This document shows positions 28,142-35,351 of a stretch of DNA of 64,000 nt, piece by piece (within the stretch, counting starts at the first letter, position 1; the number at the start of each line of letters is the position of its first letter). Under the pieces are notes generated by a model. It was given only the letters and a program-made list of their open reading frames with translations, was not told where the DNA came from and made no database searches. Source of the stretch: Methylosinus sp. LW4 (GTDB lineage: Bacteria; Pseudomonadota; Alphaproteobacteria; Rhizobiales; Beijerinckiaceae); the NCBI RefSeq assembly GCF_000379125.1, contig NZ_KB900626.1:3358667-3422666 (forward strand), read 5' to 3'. The position numbers were made by a program, and so were the translations under genes.

Positions 28142-29860
28142 TCACTCCGCGGCGGTCTTCAATTCCTCTCCGCGCACCACATCCAATCCGCGGAAGATCG
28201 CGCAGCGCTGGAACACGGCGATATCCGGCGAGACCTGCTTTTGATGGCAGAATTTCGCCGTCAGCTTGGCGAGGCCCTTGATGTCGCGGCCCGTCGCATA
28301 GGGGAAGACGGCGACGAGATCGTCGATCAGCGCATCGGCGAGCTTCAGCTCGAACTGATCCGACATCACGCGCCAGATGCGGCGCTTCGCGTCATCGTCC
28401 GGCGGGCTGTATTTGATGAGCGCGATGCAGCGGGAGACGATCGCCTCGTCGATATCGTCGACGCGATTGGTCGTCAGGAACAGCAGGCCGTTGAAATATT
28501 CCAGCACGCGCAGGAACACGCCGACTACGGCGTTCATGGCGATATTGTCGTCGCGCCGCTTGATATAGACGTCGGCCTCGTCGATCAGCATCACCGCGCC
28601 CCAGCGTTGCGCGCGGGTGAGGATTTCCTTCAGCGCCGTCTCCATCGTCGCGACATTGAGGCCGAGCTGGCCGGAATGCACGCGATAGAGCGGTCGCTGA
28701 ATGATCTCCGAATAGACTTCCGCCGTCAGCGTCTTGCCGACGCCGGGCGGGCCGGCGCAGAGCACGGTGGTGCCGCCCGATTTGCCGGCGACGATATCGT
28801 CCATCAGCACGTCCATCTCGGCGGTCAGAATGTCGATGAGATCGGTCTGCTCGGCCGGCAGCACCAGCTTCTGCTTCAGCGCGGGCTTATATTCATAGAG
28901 CTTCATCTCGTCGACATGCACCCAGACATGGTGATGCAGATCGAGATGGAACATCAGAATGTAAGGATGCACCGGAATGCGCTTGAACAAATGTTCGGGG
29001 ATCTGCTGCTGCATCACCGCGAGCTCGTCCTCGACGGTGAATTTATTGCTCTTCGACGCTTTGCGGATGAAATTGCCGAGCACGTCGCCGGGCGATTCCA
29101 GCGTCAGGCTGCGCGCCGAGAGAATGGCCTCGTCATTGACGAGGCGCGCATCGCCGCCGCTGGTCGACAGCACCACGACATCCTTGCGCGACCAATCCGT
29201 GTCGCGATGCGAGGCGTTGGGGTCCTCGGCGTGAAAGCCGGTGCCGCGGCCGGTGAATTGCTGGCCATAGCGGCCGCGCCAATCGAAATAGGTCTCGGTC
29301 GCCGTGTCGAAGGCCGCGATCAGCTCGGGCGTCTCGCGGATAAAGCCTTTGACCGCGAGAATCTCGTTGATCGTGCGGCCCGCGACCTCCGCCGCCATGA
29401 TGCGAATGGCGGTGGTGGTCAGCACGCCCTTGGCGTTGGATTTCAGCTCGATCATCACCTTGCCCGCCTCGTCGTTGGAGGCCGGCACATAGTCGAAGCG
29501 GGTGATGACGTAAGGCAGAGGCTTGGAGGCGACGCTCGCCGTGAACAGCCAGCCGCGAATGGCGTCGGCGGTCAGATAGCGCACCATCGCCGGCAGAACC
29601 TGCTCGAGCTCGGTGGCCTCGAAGCGCCGGCCGCCGGCCTTCAGCGCGTCGCGCAGCGTCGCGAGCTGCGCGGCTCTCGCGCGCATGTCCGGGCCGGCCG
29701 CGCGATAGAGATCTTCCAGGAAGGTCAGCTCCTCGTCGGAGAGATGAGAGAACTCGACCTCGACTCTGTCGCTGAAGCGCAATTGCTCCGCGAACCCTGC
29801 GCGGGCCGGGAATCGCGCCATCAGCGATTCGACATATTGGCGTTCGATTTGAATATTCAT
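28142..29860 (-). CDS. AAA-family ATPase, partner of the SagB-like gene
   Basis: A 572-residue protein. The first about 330 residues are a unique N-terminal part without a recognised domain (start NIQIERQYVESLMARFPARAGF). The AAA domain follows: Walker A GPPGVGKT near residue 372, Walker B VMLIDEADVYIKRR near 432, sensor 1 FLTTNRVDDIDEAIVSR with arginine finger-type residues, and a C-terminal lid. This is the 26S-protease/BCS1-like AAA style used by remodelling ATPases rather than DNA-acting ones. Its start overlaps the stop of the SagB-like gene as ATGA (29857-29860), so the two are translationally coupled and probably act on one process. The substrate is unknown. Confidence 0.75.
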   Translation of the reverse strand: MNIQIERQYVESLMARFPARAGFAEQLRFSDRVEVEFSHLSDEELTFLEDLYRAAGPDMRARAAQLATLRDALKAGGRRFEATELEQVLPAMVRYLTADAIRGWLFTASVASKPLPYVITRFDYVPASNDEAGKVMIELKSNAKGVLTTTAIRIMAAEVAGRTINEILAVKGFIRETPELIAAFDTATETYFDWRGRYGQQFTGRGTGFHAEDPNASHRDTDWSRKDVVVLSTSGGDARLVNDEAILSARSLTLESPGDVLGNFIRKASKSNKFTVEDELAVMQQQIPEHLFKRIPVHPYILMFHLDLHHHVWVHVDEMKLYEYKPALKQKLVLPAEQTDLIDILTAEMDVLMDDIVAGKSGGTTVLCAGPPGVGKTLTAEVYSEIIQRPLYRVHSGQLGLNVATMETALKEILTRAQRWGAVMLIDEADVYIKRRDDNIAMNAVVGVFLRVLEYFNGLLFLTTNRVDDIDEAIVSRCIALIKYSPPDDDAKRRIWRVMSDQFELKLADALIDDLVAVFPYATGRDIKGLAKLTAKFCHQKQVSPDIAVFQRCAIFRGLDVVRGEELKTAAE

Positions 29861-31467
29861 CGCCGCTCTCGCCTGTCATCGGGATAGGGGGGAAGCGTCA
29901 GAATGCGCGTGTCTTCGACAGGCCCTCCGACGGTGAAGTGGTAGACGTCCTGGAACTGCATATCGCCCGGCGTCAGGCCCAGAAGCTCATGGACCGTGTC
30001 GTCGAAGAAGCAGCCGATGCCGGTGCCGGCGATCCCCGCCGCGGTGGCCCAGAGATAGAGAGCCTGGCCGATGAGGCCGGCCTCGAAATGCAGGCGCCGA
30101 TAGGCGAAGGCGCCGTCCGCCGCCAGTGCGCGGTCGAATTCCGCGATCATCGCGACGCTGAAGCAGCCCTTGCCGGAAATGGGCTGGAGGCAGGCGAGCT
30201 TGGTCGCCTCTTTTTCCACCGAGCCCGCATAGAGCCGATAGAGCGGTAGGCCTTCCAGCTCGACCAGTGACCATTCGAAATCCTTGCGCGAGGCTTCGCG
30301 CAGCCGCGCGGCGACGTCGCTGTCGCGTTGCAGCGCATAGAGGCCGGGCTCCAGACCATCGACGCGATGCACGAAGAGAATGAGCGTGATCGCCGCGCCC
30401 CAGGGAAAGGCGGAGAGCAGAGTGGATTCGCTCGGCAGCGTCGAGGCGATGAGCGCGGCGAAGGCCTCGCGCGAGATGGAGGTGGTTCCGTCCATCTTCT
30501 GCGCGCTGCGGCGCTTGCGCACGGCGGCGCCGATCGAGACGCCATCGAAACCGGGCGCCGGCCATTGCGCGCGCGTCGGCGCCGGGGGCCTCGGCTGGCG
30601 CGGCTTGCGGCAGAATTGCCCGGCGAGATCAATGATCGGCCAGCCGTCGTGATCCTCGCTCAGCCGATTGGCCTGGCCGCGAAACTCGCGCGGCGCATCG
30701 ATGAGAGCGAAGAGATCGAGCGGCGTCGCCGGCCCCGGCTCGGTCGCGATCCACATCAGCAGATCGGGATGCTCCGGCTCGCGTCTGTGCCAGGCGTCCT
30801 CGCGATCGAGGCCGATGAGCGCGGCGATCTCGCCGTCGGAGGGGTCGGCCAGCGCCTGCGCCCGCCAGCCGAGCGCGGCGGCGGCCTGAGCCACGGCGCC
30901 GATCGCATGGCCGGCGTCGAGCTGGCAATAGCGAAAGGCGCGCTCGCCATATTTCCACGCCTCGCGCCAGGGAATGGAGGAGAGCGCCAGAAGAAAGCCG
31001 CCCTTGGGCAGCACGCGCGGCGTCGTATAGGCCGCGCGCTCCTCGAGTGCATGCAGCAGCGGCGCGTAATGATAGAGCGCGGCGCCGGCGCCGAGCCCCT
31101 CCACCGCATCCAGCAGCACATAGGATTCGGTGGGATGCAGATTGCCGGAGGAGGGATTGTTGCGTAGCGCCCAGGTCGAGCCTTCATAGCTCTTCCAGGC
31201 GCTTATGCCGAAGGACAGCTCGAGGAACAGGCCGAGCGCGCGAAGATCGAGCGCCGCCGGCTGCGGCGCAGGGCCGGGGAAGGCGGGCGTCTCCTCGATG
31301 ATGGGCAATGGCGTCTGCCGCACGCCCTCGAAGAGGCGGAAGGGCGAGGGCTGCGACGTCCAATCGAGAAAGCCCGGACCCATCGCATAGCGGTTCGGCG
31401 CATGCTTGGTGCGCCGATGGTAGCCGCGAATGTCCGTCGGCATGGTGTCACGATCTTCGAAGCTCAT
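29857..31467 (-). CDS. Tandem SagB/ThcOx-type (nitroreductase-fold) flavoprotein
   Basis: A 536-residue protein with two nitroreductase-like halves. The first (about 1-270) has YHRRTKHAPNRYAMGPGFLDW, RNNPSSGNLHPTESYVLLD and a VAQAAAALGWRAQAL element; the second (about 310-530) has IGAAVRKRRSAQKMDG, FHRVDGLEPGLYAL-type VHRVDGLEPGLYALQRD, and a terminal AGIAGTGIGCFFDD...LGL. SagB/ThcOx enzymes are FMN-dependent and oxidise azolines in peptide natural products; twin-domain forms of this length are known but poorly studied. No precursor peptide, YcaO or protease gene lies nearby, so peptide maturation is not supported. The start MSFEDRD at 31467 is preferred to an upstream ATG-less extension. Confidence 0.75.
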   Translation of the reverse strand: MSFEDRDTMPTDIRGYHRRTKHAPNRYAMGPGFLDWTSQPSPFRLFEGVRQTPLPIIEETPAFPGPAPQPAALDLRALGLFLELSFGISAWKSYEGSTWALRNNPSSGNLHPTESYVLLDAVEGLGAGAALYHYAPLLHALEERAAYTTPRVLPKGGFLLALSSIPWREAWKYGERAFRYCQLDAGHAIGAVAQAAAALGWRAQALADPSDGEIAALIGLDREDAWHRREPEHPDLLMWIATEPGPATPLDLFALIDAPREFRGQANRLSEDHDGWPIIDLAGQFCRKPRQPRPPAPTRAQWPAPGFDGVSIGAAVRKRRSAQKMDGTTSISREAFAALIASTLPSESTLLSAFPWGAAITLILFVHRVDGLEPGLYALQRDSDVAARLREASRKDFEWSLVELEGLPLYRLYAGSVEKEATKLACLQPISGKGCFSVAMIAEFDRALAADGAFAYRRLHFEAGLIGQALYLWATAAGIAGTGIGCFFDDTVHELLGLTPGDMQFQDVYHFTVGGPVEDTRILTLPPYPDDRRERR

Positions 31468-31678
31468 ACGCGCTCCCGCTCCCCGCCGCAGAGACGGGGA
31501 AGGTATGGATTTTGATTGTCGGCCACTCGATCGGATCCCGACACGCGCCCTCGAGGGATTCAAGGATCGTGCCTTGTTCGCTGCGCCGCAAAAAAATGAT
31601 CGGCGCCAGCAAAATCAGTCTGATAGTTAAATGCAGCCGTGTCGGTTCGGGAACGGCTCGAACAAAAGGAGCCTACCG

Positions 31679-31996
31679 ATGTCGCAAATTGTCGAAGTCG
31701 CAGCCGCCGAGCATCGGCATTTTGGCGCATTGGTGACGATTCGCGTAGGCGAGCAGCCGCTGCGCCGGCTGACCCCGAACGAGGCCGGCATTCTCTCCCG
31801 CGCGCTGGCGGCGGTGGCCAATGGCTCCAGCGCGGAAAAGACCGTCTTCATGAGCCCGATCGCCAGCGATCACGAGTTCGAGGCGCAAGTCCAGGACGAT
31901 GGCGTCACGGTGAAGGCGGCGGACGGGCCGGAGATTTTTCTGGACTGGACGCAGACCCGCATATTGGCCGAGGCGCTGGCGAAGCTGGCGGGCTGA
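31679..31996 (+). CDS. Small conserved-looking protein of unknown function
   Basis: A 105-residue protein starting MSQIVEVAAAEHRHFGALV at ATG 31679, with AAAAGGAG seven to eight bases upstream. It is a compact, soluble alpha/beta sequence: LTPNEAGILSRALAAVANGSSAEKTVFMSPIASDHEFEAQVQDDGVTVKAADG. No family is recognised. It is divergent from the SagB-like gene and is followed by another small gene of unknown function after 21 bases. An upstream start at 31631 lacks a ribosome-binding site. Confidence 0.6.
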   Translation: MSQIVEVAAAEHRHFGALVTIRVGEQPLRRLTPNEAGILSRALAAVANGSSAEKTVFMSPIASDHEFEAQVQDDGVTVKAADGPEIFLDWTQTRILAEALAKLAG

Positions 31997-32017: not shown

Positions 32018-32299
32018 ATGCATCGAATTTACTTCGACACGAACGAGGGGCCGGTAGGGAATGATCGCTACGGCCTTTGGCTCGACGCGTCGCTGAAGGA
32101 CATGGAGCCGATCGCGGACCAACTCCATGACGGGCTTCGTGTTGTAATCTACATGACCGGCGAGCTCGAGATGCAAGCGACGCTCGAGTTCGACAAAGCT
32201 CTGAACGCTTGGACGGCTCGGCCAATCGCAGGGACCATTGTCATCTATGCCGAAACCCATTCGAGAGGTGAGAAGGCGGATGACGACGCGCCGGCGTGA
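32018..32299 (+). CDS. Small hypothetical protein
   Basis: A 93-residue protein, mostly predicted beta strands with one helix, beginning HRIYFDTNEGPVGNDRYGLWLD and containing VVIYMTGELEMQATLEFD and TIVIYAETH. AAGGATAAG lies just before ATG 32018. Base composition is lower in GC than the neighbours. It follows the 31679 gene by 21 bases, so the two may form an operon. No function can be assigned. Confidence 0.55.
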   Translation: MHRIYFDTNEGPVGNDRYGLWLDASLKDMEPIADQLHDGLRVVIYMTGELEMQATLEFDKALNAWTARPIAGTIVIYAETHSRGEKADDDAPA

Positions 32300-32392
32300 T
32301 CGGCGTCGCTGCCCGACCTTGCAACTCGAGCCGAAGGCGCGTATTTTCATGCCCAGATCGGCGCAGCGCCGATGAGACCGAGGAACTGAGCT

Positions 32393-32491
32393 TTGGCGGC
32401 AACGGCCACCATCACGAAAGACGCGGCGCGCTCCTCGGCGTTCGCCTCCGCGCGTCTTCTTTCGAGCCTGCTGCTTCTTAGTCGCCCCTGA
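32393..32491 (+). CDS. leuL: Leucine-rich leader peptide of leuA
   Basis: A 32-codon ORF from TTG 32393 (GAGGA at 32380-32384, eight bases upstream) to TGA 32489-32491, 99 bases before leuA. Codons 22-29 contain six leucines in eight codons: CTT CTT, two serine codons, then CTG CTG CTT CTT. That density is the hallmark of a leader peptide whose ribosome stalls when charged tRNA-Leu is scarce, as in the leu operons of enterobacteria. An in-frame stop immediately precedes the TTG, so no longer version exists. A 8-bp hairpin precedes the Leu codons and alternative hairpins follow (32485-32583). The gene symbol is by analogy. Confidence 0.7.
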   Translation: MAATATITKDAARSSAFASARLLSSLLLLSRP

Positions 32492-32583
32492 ACGCCCCCA
32501 GGGCCGCCCGGCCCAGGCATTCAGGGGAAGCCGAGCTAAGACGAAACGAGAGCGCCCGCGAGCTCGGGCCGAGCAGTTCAGGA
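32485..32583 (+). promoter_or_regulatory. leuA attenuator with two competing pairings
   Basis: CCCCTGAA (32485-32492, containing the leader stop codon) can pair with TTCAGGGG (32520-32527; stem extends past one mismatch by GCC/GGC). The overlapping CCTGAAC (32487-32493) can instead pair with GTTCAGG (32576-32582), which covers the leuA Shine-Dalgarno AGGA (32580-32583). The two are mutually exclusive. A further hairpin, AAGACGCG (32418-32425) with CGCGTCTT (32451-32458), lies before the leucine codons, and TCTTAG (32476-32481) could pair with CTAAGA (32536-32541). No T tract follows, so control may be on leuA translation rather than transcription. The mechanism is inference from base-pairing. 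Confidence 0.5.
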
Positions 32584-32590
32584 CGAAGCC

Positions 32591-34162
32591 ATGACCGACA
32601 ATAATCCTTCCGCCCCCCGCGACGCCGATCGCGTCGTCATTTTCGACACCACTCTGCGCGACGGCGAGCAATCGCCCGGCGCCTCCATGACCTTCGAGGA
32701 GAAGCTCGAGGTCGCCGATATTCTGGACGAGCTGGGCGTCGACATTATCGAGGCCGGCTTCCCCATCGCCAGCCAGGGCGATTTCGAATCGGTGTCCGAG
32801 ATCGCCAAGCGCGTGAAGAACGCGACGATCGCGGGCCTCGCCCGGGCCGCCGCCAAGGACATAGACCGCTGCGCCGAGGCGCTGCGTCACGCCCGCAACG
32901 CGCGCATCCATACCTTCATCTCCACCTCGCCGGTCCATATGAAATACAAGCTCCAGATGGAGCCGGAAAAAGTATTGGAGATGATCGCGTCTTCCGTCTC
33001 GCGGGCGCGCAATCATGTCGCGGACGTCGAATGGTCGGCCGAGGATGGCACGCGCACGGAACATGATTTCCTGTGCCGCTGCGTGGAGACGGCGATCAAT
33101 GCGGGCGCGACGACGATCAACATTCCCGACACGGTGGGCTACGCCACGCCGCAGGAATATGAGGCGCTGTTCCGCATGGTGCGCGAGCGCGTGCCCAATG
33201 CCGACAAGGCGATCTTCTCGGTCCATTGCCATGACGATCTCGGCCTCGCGGTCTCCAACTCGCTGGCCGGCGTGCGCGGCGGCGCGCGGCAGATCGAATG
33301 CACCATCAACGGCATAGGCGAGCGCGCCGGCAACGCCGCGCTGGAAGAAGTGGTGATGGCGATGCGCACGCGCCCCGATGCGTTGCCCTATCGCACCAAT
33401 ATCGACGCCAAGCTGCTGACGCGCGCGTCCAAGCTCGTCTCGGCGGTGACGTCCTTCCCGGTGCAATACAATAAGGCCATCGTCGGCCGGAACGCCTTCG
33501 CGCATGAGAGCGGCATCCATCAGGACGGCATGCTCAAAAACGCGCATACGTATGAGATCATGACGCCGGAGAGCGTCGGCGTGTCCAAGACCTCGCTGGT
33601 CATGGGCAAGCATTCCGGCCGCCACGCCTTCAAGGAGAAGCTCAAAGAGCTGGGCTATGAGCTGGGCGAGAATGCGCTGGAGGACGCCTTCAAGCGTTTC
33701 AAGGATTTGGCCGATCGCAAGAAGCTCGTTTACGACGAGGATATCGTCGCTCTGGTCGACGACGAGATCGTGACCGCCAATGATCACATAAAGGTCGCGG
33801 CGCTCACCGTCATCGCCGGCACGGCCGGGCCGCAGACGGCGGCGCTGACCTTGGACATAGACGGCGAGAAGAAGACGCATCAGGCGACCGGCAACGGACC
33901 CGTCGACGCCATCTTCAACGCCATAAAGGCGCTGGCGCCGCATGAGGCCGCGCTCGAATTGTTCCAGGTGCATGCCGTAACGGAAGGCACCGATGCCCAA
34001 GCGGAAGTCTCCGTGCGTCTTTCGGAGGACGGAAAATCGGTGACGGGCCGCGGCGCCGATCCCGATACGCTGGTCGCCTCGGCGCGCGCTTATGTCGCTG
34101 CGCTCAACAAGCTGATCGTCAAGCGCGCCAAGACCAAGCCCGAGGCGATGAAGGCGGGCTGA
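32591..34162 (+). CDS. leuA: 2-isopropylmalate synthase
   Basis: A 523-residue enzyme that condenses 2-oxoisovalerate and acetyl-CoA, the first step of leucine synthesis. The catalytic TIM barrel has FDTTLRDGEQSPGASM (the metal-binding Asp and Arg), SVHCHDDLGLAVSN (metal-binding histidines HCHDD), INGIGERAGNAALEEV and HESGIHQDG. The C-terminal LeuA dimer domain, the site of leucine feedback, ends TKPEAMKAG. Expression is probably controlled by the leader peptide and hairpins at 32393-32583. The 3' end (34102-34162) is repeated in diverged form at 35060-35120, with an islet between them. Confidence 0.97.
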   Translation: MTDNNPSAPRDADRVVIFDTTLRDGEQSPGASMTFEEKLEVADILDELGVDIIEAGFPIASQGDFESVSEIAKRVKNATIAGLARAAAKDIDRCAEALRHARNARIHTFISTSPVHMKYKLQMEPEKVLEMIASSVSRARNHVADVEWSAEDGTRTEHDFLCRCVETAINAGATTINIPDTVGYATPQEYEALFRMVRERVPNADKAIFSVHCHDDLGLAVSNSLAGVRGGARQIECTINGIGERAGNAALEEVVMAMRTRPDALPYRTNIDAKLLTRASKLVSAVTSFPVQYNKAIVGRNAFAHESGIHQDGMLKNAHTYEIMTPESVGVSKTSLVMGKHSGRHAFKEKLKELGYELGENALEDAFKRFKDLADRKKLVYDEDIVALVDDEIVTANDHIKVAALTVIAGTAGPQTAALTLDIDGEKKTHQATGNGPVDAIFNAIKALAPHEAALELFQVHAVTEGTDAQAEVSVRLSEDGKSVTGRGADPDTLVASARAYVAALNKLIVKRAKTKPEAMKAG

Positions 34163-35141: not shown

Positions 35142-35176
35142 CGAGGGACGCGGCGACGCGTCCCTCGTTTCGTTTT
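35142..35176 (+). terminator. Strong intrinsic terminator after the duplicated leuA end
   Basis: An 11-bp perfect stem, 35142-35152 with 35157-35167, loop GCGA, followed by TTTCGTTTT (35168-35176). It stands 22 bases after the second leuA stop and is probably the original leuA terminator that the islet separated from leuA. Confidence 0.85.
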
Positions 35177-35226
35177 GCCGGCTGGCCCGAAATTCTCTAC
35201 AAGGTTCGCGGATGGCGCGACGTCCC

Positions 35227-35307
35227 GTCATTGCGAGGAGCGAAGCGACGAAGCAATCCAGAGCCGTGGCCCACGGTTCTGGATTGCTTCGCTTCGTTCG
35301 CAATGAC
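35227..35307. repeat. Long imperfect palindromic repeat
   Basis: The unit starts GTCATTGCGAGGAGCGAAGC, ends TTCGCAATGAC and has CAATCCAGAG/CTGGATTG around the centre. It is the same family as 28058-28134. Such units occur widely in alphaproteobacterial genomes between genes. The stretch 35177-35351 holds nothing else apart from the acnA ribosome-binding site (GAAGGAAGCG). Confidence 0.8.
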
Positions 35308-35351
35308 GGCTGTCCGCGCCTGTCATCGACTCCAAGCGAAGGAAGCGCGAA

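Follow-up and report, generated by a model that had tools for sequence, protein, structure and literature searches.

A leucine-codon leader element conserved before leuA in Alphaproteobacteria, with Leu codons predicted to pair with the leuA Shine-Dalgarno sequence

Introduction

Why does a short open reading frame (ORF) crowded with leucine codons stand before leuA, the gene for 2-isopropylmalate synthase, in Methylosinus sp. LW4, and by what means might it act on that gene? The locus lies in a stretch of 64,000 nt (NZ_KB900626.1, positions 3,358,667-3,422,666, forward strand), here called the window, and all coordinates count from its first letter. An earlier note on this DNA had described the ORF as a leucine-rich leader peptide, had proposed control of leuA translation through its Shine-Dalgarno (SD) sequence, and had drawn a switch in which the stop region of the leader pairs with one of two downstream partners.

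Several known systems offer models for such a locus. In enterobacteria, the leuL leader with its Leu codons precedes leuA and works by classical transcription attenuation through a T-run terminator. In Alphaproteobacteria, Vitreschak and colleagues reportedly described in 2004 an ilv leader that acts by transcription attenuation. In erm translational attenuation, a ribosome held in the leader ORF frees a hidden SD. The system closest in position and partners is the actinobacterial LEU element 5' of leuA, where the SD and a run of Leu codons form a stem that encloses a pseudoknot (Seliverstov et al. 2005, PMC1262725). On the basis of mutation data, its authors thought classical attenuation improbable, and they suggested that a protein binds the element (PMC1262725). 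A term search of a 2005 motif survey covering Agrobacterium and its relatives finds a leader peptide of ilvB but no mention of leucine or isopropylmalate (PMC1273637), and searches of the open-licence literature gave no title or abstract opening recognisable as describing an alphaproteobacterial leuA leader.

Results

The leader ORF and its conservation

The leader ORF lies on the + strand between a TTG start at 32393 and a TGA stop codon at 32489-32491. It has 32 codons and ends in RLLSSLLLLSRP, and 99 bases separate the stop from the ATG of leuA at 32591, all as the earlier note had placed them. The leuA gene (32591-34162, + strand) encodes a 2-isopropylmalate synthase of 523 aa and of the TIGR00973 type (720.6 bits, cut-off 598.7). 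The six Leu that had been counted within codons 22-29 are codons 22-23 (CTT CTT, 32456-32461, + strand) and 26-29 (CTG CTG CTT CTT, 32468-32479, + strand), the final CTT and the A after it being almost invariant. When all six frames of the window were searched, at least six Leu in eight residues occurred in one of 113,190 stop-free stretches, and that one is this leader. The motif GAGGA (32380-32384, + strand), 9 nt 5' of the TTG, is a possible SD of the leader ORF, and GACCGAGGA at this site is mostly kept in the genus alignment. A candidate promoter of the leader transcript, TTGCAA-17 nt-TATTTT (32319-32347, + strand), forms a conserved island in 10 genus rows; the sigma-70 scan returned no match at threshold for this block, whose candidacy comes from its conservation in the genus.

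Of 60 relatives, 53 yielded a leuA gene, as did 200 of 229 genomes of the order, which the named matches and the earlier note point to as Hyphomicrobiales; the two sets overlap. Upstream DNA was compared for 130 genomes, the window's own included, and beyond the window's genus mostly a single genome was taken from each genus. A leader followed by a hairpin, P1, that contains the leader stop codon stands 5' of leuA in 128 of these 130 genomes, which upholds the reading of the ORF as a leucine leader peptide and shows it to be conserved. The search pattern recovered 124 of them; among the six rows that it missed, four were positive by eye (L034, L050, L076 and L099), L092 (genome G043) gave a weak covariance-model match (E 0.0084), and L115 was the one of the 130 upstream regions in which no leader element was seen. 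The hairpin ends were re-set in two rows (L043 and L082).

Conservation follows the reading frame. Counted back from P1 over the 124 rows of the order, CTT occupies the codon at -8 in 123, and Leu is encoded at -11 in 115 and at -14 in 122, with a free third base at both -11 and -14; in 122 rows the stop codon keeps its place relative to P1. Over the order and the rows outside it, the final Leu codon is CTT in 185 of 192 rows and CTA in 7 of 192, a count for which rows had to begin with CT at that codon. The search patterns demanded CCCCT and GGGG, and CTTA was favoured both in them and in anchoring, so that those bases are constant in part because of the search itself. CTT and CTA together account for 4 of the 124 Leu codons in the window's leuA and acnA. 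Within the genus, the TTG start holds its place in 8 of 10 rows, indels are of 3 nt, and the six closest rows differ 30, 33 and 52 times at codon positions 1, 2 and 3. The locus thus carries what marks a leader-peptide attenuator, a short upstream ORF rich in codons for the product of the pathway, and its codon-type conservation suggests that the ORF is translated. A programmed frameshift at CUUA was rejected: of 124 rows, 43 have a +1 frame and 49 a +2 frame that stays open as far as leuA, and the frame stops on the leuA start in 16 rows (+1) and 21 rows (+2), with no sign of selection. Outside the order, the codon preceding the final Leu codon is CGA (Arg), which is usually avoided, in 38 of 68 rows (L281, L291, L294 and L299, for example).

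The hairpin P1 and the linker

P1 begins 5 nt 3' of the final Leu codon. Its predicted fold joins a 5' arm, CCCCUGAA (32485-32492), which holds the stop codon, to a 3' arm, UUCAGGGG (32520-32527), and encloses the inner helices GCC/GGC (32494-32496/32516-32518) and GGGCC/GGCCC (32501-32505/32510-32514), all on the + strand. The hairpin of CCCCTGAA and TTCAGGGG proposed in the earlier note is P1, and it was borne out: its predicted probability is 0.99 in a fold of the window's DNA that begins at the leader start and runs beyond the ATG, and compensatory changes occur in the arms and in the inner helices. RNAalifold on 66 rows gave 15 pairs, nine of them changed on both sides, and the fixed structure leaves 93.7% of cells paired. 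Changes on both sides were found in 100 cells, compared with 34 in shuffles, and the covariation score of 0.364 (0.193 shuffled) was matched by none of 500 shuffles; it fell to 0.11-0.12 when the partner was slid by one column. Because the search pattern already prescribed the outermost C-G pairs, their constancy is no evidence, and support for P1 comes from the inner pairs. The apical loops differ among rows in both length and sequence.

Between P1 and the leuA SD, the predicted fold contains a linker hairpin, GCCCG/CGGGC (32554-32569, + strand). In the order the linker is more stable than its shuffles (mean z -0.75, 39 families); outside the order, linkers were not more stable than shuffles (mean z -0.15, 44 families). 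Taken entire, 32380-32610 folds no better than its dinucleotide shuffles (z -0.88, 44 of 200 shuffles as good). A terminator in the linker was considered and rejected, there being no T-run.

The strand that pairs with the leuA Shine-Dalgarno

In the same window fold, the Leu codons are predicted to pair with the leuA SD, CAGGA (32579-32583, + strand), which lies 7 nt 5' of the ATG. The 5' strand of this base stem (32467-32476, + strand) consists of CCUG and CUGCUU within the Leu codons, and the 3' strand (32571-32582, + strand) of GAGCAG, a UU bulge and CAGG over the SD, with a mean pair probability of 0.83. On the 3' side, AGCAG and either TCAGGAC or CCAGGAC are retained in the 10 genus rows. 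Both strands are near-constant within the genus, and hence no co-variation appears there.

Across families, co-variation was sought by a partner test, in which each leader was paired with its own leuA SD region and with the SDs of other families, one row being used per family and the partners shuffled. Over 39 families of the order, the Leu run pairs with its own SD at -14.24 kcal/mol, against -12.27 kcal/mol for shuffled partners (z -4.86; -4.62 with shorter pieces). Controls on these 39 families gave z -1.07 for the reversed SD, +0.42 for positions -52..-27, -0.39 for leuA codons 2-9, and -1.63 and -1.23 for leader positions -54..-28 and -81..-55. An independent set from outside the order was selected with a covariance model that excludes the SD. 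It comprised 77 loci, and removal of those lacking a leuA match (L289, L302, L326) or a hairpin (L283, L309, L336, L338, L339), together with L312 and L331, left 67 rows in 43 families for the test. There the Leu run paired with its own SD at z -6.71 (-2.99 with shorter pieces), and the controls gave -0.05 for the reversed SD and -0.66 for leuA codons 2-9. Two further controls on these 43 families were low, positions -52..-27 (z -2.58) and, at the borderline, leader positions -54..-28 (z -1.93), so the base stem may extend further or some background may persist.

Leu codons and SDs are naturally complementary, and mismatched partners therefore already reach -12.3 kcal/mol, leaving a specific excess of 2-3 kcal/mol. 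A good example of the stem is L042, in which UCCUUAUCAG of the leader pairs with CUGAUAAGGA; in the exceptions L013, L016, L028, L087 and L109, over 90% of the other SDs are better partners than the row's own. The proposal that leuA is controlled in translation through its SD gains from both the predicted stem and its co-variation within and outside the order.

Placing a ribosome footprint in the fold model bears on the same point. With the footprint on codon 26 or 29 of the window, the base stem is lost and predicted SD openness rises from 0.28 to 0.45, whereas on codon 12 it reaches only 0.31; a shorter upstream context reduces the gain (0.28 to 0.34). Family means rise from 0.23 to 0.40 in the order, with an increase in 36 of 39 families, and from 0.26 to 0.39 outside it, with an increase in 33 of 44; a ribosome 50 nt upstream leaves them unshifted. 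Much the same opening is predicted, in the window and in the families, for a footprint at the stop codon, so the model says only that a ribosome near the Leu codons opens the SD, and dwell time would set the output. Folding with and without a ribosome, a check put forward in the earlier note, shifts predicted SD openness and gives 0.000 for pairing between stop region and SD. Its second check, conservation in relatives, came out divided: the Leu codons and P1 are conserved, and the stop region:SD pairing is not. By co-variation and in the fold model, the Leu-codon region, and not the stop region, is the strand that pairs with the leuA SD.

Taxonomic range

Among 289 genomes of the class, a covariance model of the leader end and P1 (R1) has matches at E <= 0.001 in at least 76, one in each; this is a lower bound because the filters were strict. 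In a sample of the phylum, 54 of 299 genomes match R1, all 54 in the class or nearer (the share of the 299 outside the class is not given). All 20 loci fetched from the class matches have leuA directly 3' on the same strand. A strict DNA pattern, applied to one genome per species, found at least 120 stretches; of the 120 listed, 119 precede leuA on the same strand at a median of 66 nt, and the remaining one is at the end of its stretch. Among the matches listed are Bradyrhizobium, Methylobacterium, Devosia, Bosea, Caulobacter sp. S45, Asaia, Acidomonas and Neomegalonema. Within the window's own genome, the best R1 match at another place has an E of only 0.07.

Rfam searches of the window at gathering level returned tRNAs only. 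For 32350-32640, with E up to 5, there were two weak matches, at 15.5 bits against a gathering level of 63.6 (minus strand) and 11.8 against 44, which we take as chance, and ten relatives searched with E up to 1 gave none.

The leader before a replaced leuA

The TIGR00970 subfamily of LeuA was found in 7 of 11 genomes searched, with C. glutamicum named as the control that carries a type-2 LeuA; a representative protein is 27% identical to the LeuA of the window. In two families, f48 and f23, the leader element, as modelled by leader end and P1, was found in all eight genomes searched (E 2e-13 to 2e-8), and in all eight it lies directly before a leuA of the TIGR00970 type (loci among L340-L342 and L349-L356). 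Judged by subfamily and position, the leuA of these two families is a non-orthologous replacement behind the same leader element. Because the element has outlived replacement of the enzyme by one of a different subfamily, it appears to follow leuA function and not the leuA gene. In a third family, f24, R1 found nothing in six genomes. The four upstream regions of type-2 leuA in that family (L343-L346), inspected by eye, show a different leucine-rich leader, with a run of Leu codons, GGCCTTA and a GCCGGG hairpin.

Discussion

The leader ORF, its Leu codons, P1, the base stem and their wide conservation before leuA are established here by sequence comparison, and the likely role of this ensemble, in our judgement, is that of a leucine-responsive translational attenuator of leuA. 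When the base stem forms between the Leu codons and the leuA SD, with P1 and the linker between its strands, leuA would be poorly translated. When leucyl-tRNA is scarce, a leader ribosome would wait at the Leu codons and occupy one strand of the base stem, and the SD would be freed; when leucine is ample, the ribosome would reach the stop codon inside P1 and leave, and the base stem would re-form. The Leu codons would then be sensor and anti-SD at once. Stalling, the response to leucine and its direction, and the part played by P1 are what we infer from this arrangement, and a rise of leuA translation through ribosome dwell on the Leu codons under leucine shortage would be expected from systems of this kind. 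The ribosomal helicase meets a hairpin at 5 nt distance when the codon in question is in the A site. As the final Leu codon is rare and lies 5 nt before P1, a ribosome waiting there would meet the hairpin; P1 may slow it at this codon, and our guess is that the wait is lengthened.

Two alternatives to translational attenuation are the most durable, though each is unlikely. In the first, the leader ORF would govern whether transcription ends before leuA, by Rho or at an intrinsic terminator. Its length would allow this, and enterobacterial leucine leaders do act via a terminator. Here, however, a T-run of at least four within 15 nt of P1 occurs in just 6 of 124 rows, the + strand of the window has no terminator-like site (the scan lists two weak ones on the minus strand), the earlier note too having seen no T-run terminator at the locus, and the pairing under selection involves the SD. 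In the second, the base stem would do no more than lower leuA translation constitutively, and the Leu codons would be kept as a CU-rich anti-SD. Leu codons of the form CUC CUU A resemble the 16S anti-SD tail, and codon choice and pairing are therefore confounded; yet Leu at -14 is kept with a free third base (122 of 124 rows), the frame and stop of the ORF are kept, and the element is tied to leuA even where leuA has been replaced.

A third possibility, that the RNA binds a protein or ligand in the manner of a riboswitch and the ORF is incidental, seems very unlikely to us. Conservation of CUUA and of some of the P1 interior goes further than the codons require, and a binding protein has been proposed for the LEU element (PMC1262725); against this stand the codon-type conservation with a common frame and stop, and apical loops that vary in length and sequence. 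Still less credible is a mechanism like that of tnaC-type leaders, in which the nascent peptide would arrest at the conserved Pro-stop and leucine would serve as co-ligand. A proline codon does precede the stop throughout the aligned rows, and a ribosome at the stop likewise opens the SD in the model, but the CCC codon belongs to the P1 stem, the other residues vary, and arrest with leucine present would switch leuA on when leucine is ample. The switch drawn in the earlier note, in which the stop region CCTGAAC (32487-32493) alternates between the P1 3' arm TTCAGGGG (32520-32527) and GTTCAGG (32576-32582) at the leuA SD, is almost certainly wrong, for although the blocks lie where the note had put them and are complementary on paper, their pairing has a predicted probability of 0.000 in the window, the SD and the P1 5' arm pair with mean probabilities of 0.003 and 0.000 over families and do not co-vary (z -0.45 in 39 families of the order, +0.75 in 43 outside it), and the switch as drawn has a flaw in its logic, since its two pairings share a strand that a ribosome at the stop would cover.

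Read as a translational attenuator, the element resembles the enterobacterial leu leader in placing a Leu-codon peptide before leuA. It differs in lacking the T-run terminator, and so is not a member of the enterobacterial leu attenuator, and it has no match to an Rfam leader family. The alphaproteobacterial ilv leader is a branched-chain amino acid leader peptide from the same bacterial class but stands before ilv genes and is said to act by transcription attenuation. In erm, stalling needs a drug and the nascent peptide, and the anti-SD is separate from the codons that hold the ribosome, whereas here the Leu codons would fill both parts.

The nearest relative in form is the LEU element. As far as its published description goes, it shares the position before leuA, a base stem of Leu codons and leuA SD, and the want of a terminator, and it differs in having a pseudoknot inside the base stem where the present element has a long hairpin with the stop codon (PMC1262725). 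The pairing of a Leu-codon run with the leuA SD is also predicted in our element, on the strength of fold and co-variation; the LEU element is actinobacterial and ours belongs to Alphaproteobacteria. We class the element as a form of leader-peptide attenuation that for now stands outside the LEU element, the comparison being with the published description only. By analogy, the mutation data cited for the LEU element would count against classical attenuation here as well.

A broader reading would join four claims: that the element is an RNA family of Alphaproteobacteria, not described before, that predates the orders of that class, that its Leu codons double as sensor and anti-SD, that it tracks leuA function and not the gene, and that the rare CUU or CUA 5 nt before P1 is a kinetic amplifier of leucine shortage. 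We incline to this combination, if only by a little. If it holds, leucine synthesis in many Alphaproteobacteria is controlled at the translation of its first committed enzyme, and one stretch of RNA serves both as sensor codons and as the blocker of a ribosome-binding site. A leader that survives the replacement of its gene would be a natural experiment on what leaders are selected for. The parallel with the LEU element, whose mechanism its authors leave open, would supply another system for working out how such stems act.

The surroundings of the leader in the window hold further features. On the minus strand, 28142-31563 is an overlapping gene pair: one gene codes for an AAA ATPase (PF00004), and the product of the other contains two stretches of the nitroreductase family (PF00881). 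Between this pair and the leader lie two small ORFs on the + strand, 31631-31996 (121 aa) and 32018-32299 (93 aa), both free of Pfam matches. On the other side, 3' of leuA at about 35170-35310, there is a palindromic repeat of the type CATTGCGAGCGAAGCGAAGCAATCC, which is also seen near the 3' end of leuA in relatives (L002, L003 and L007).
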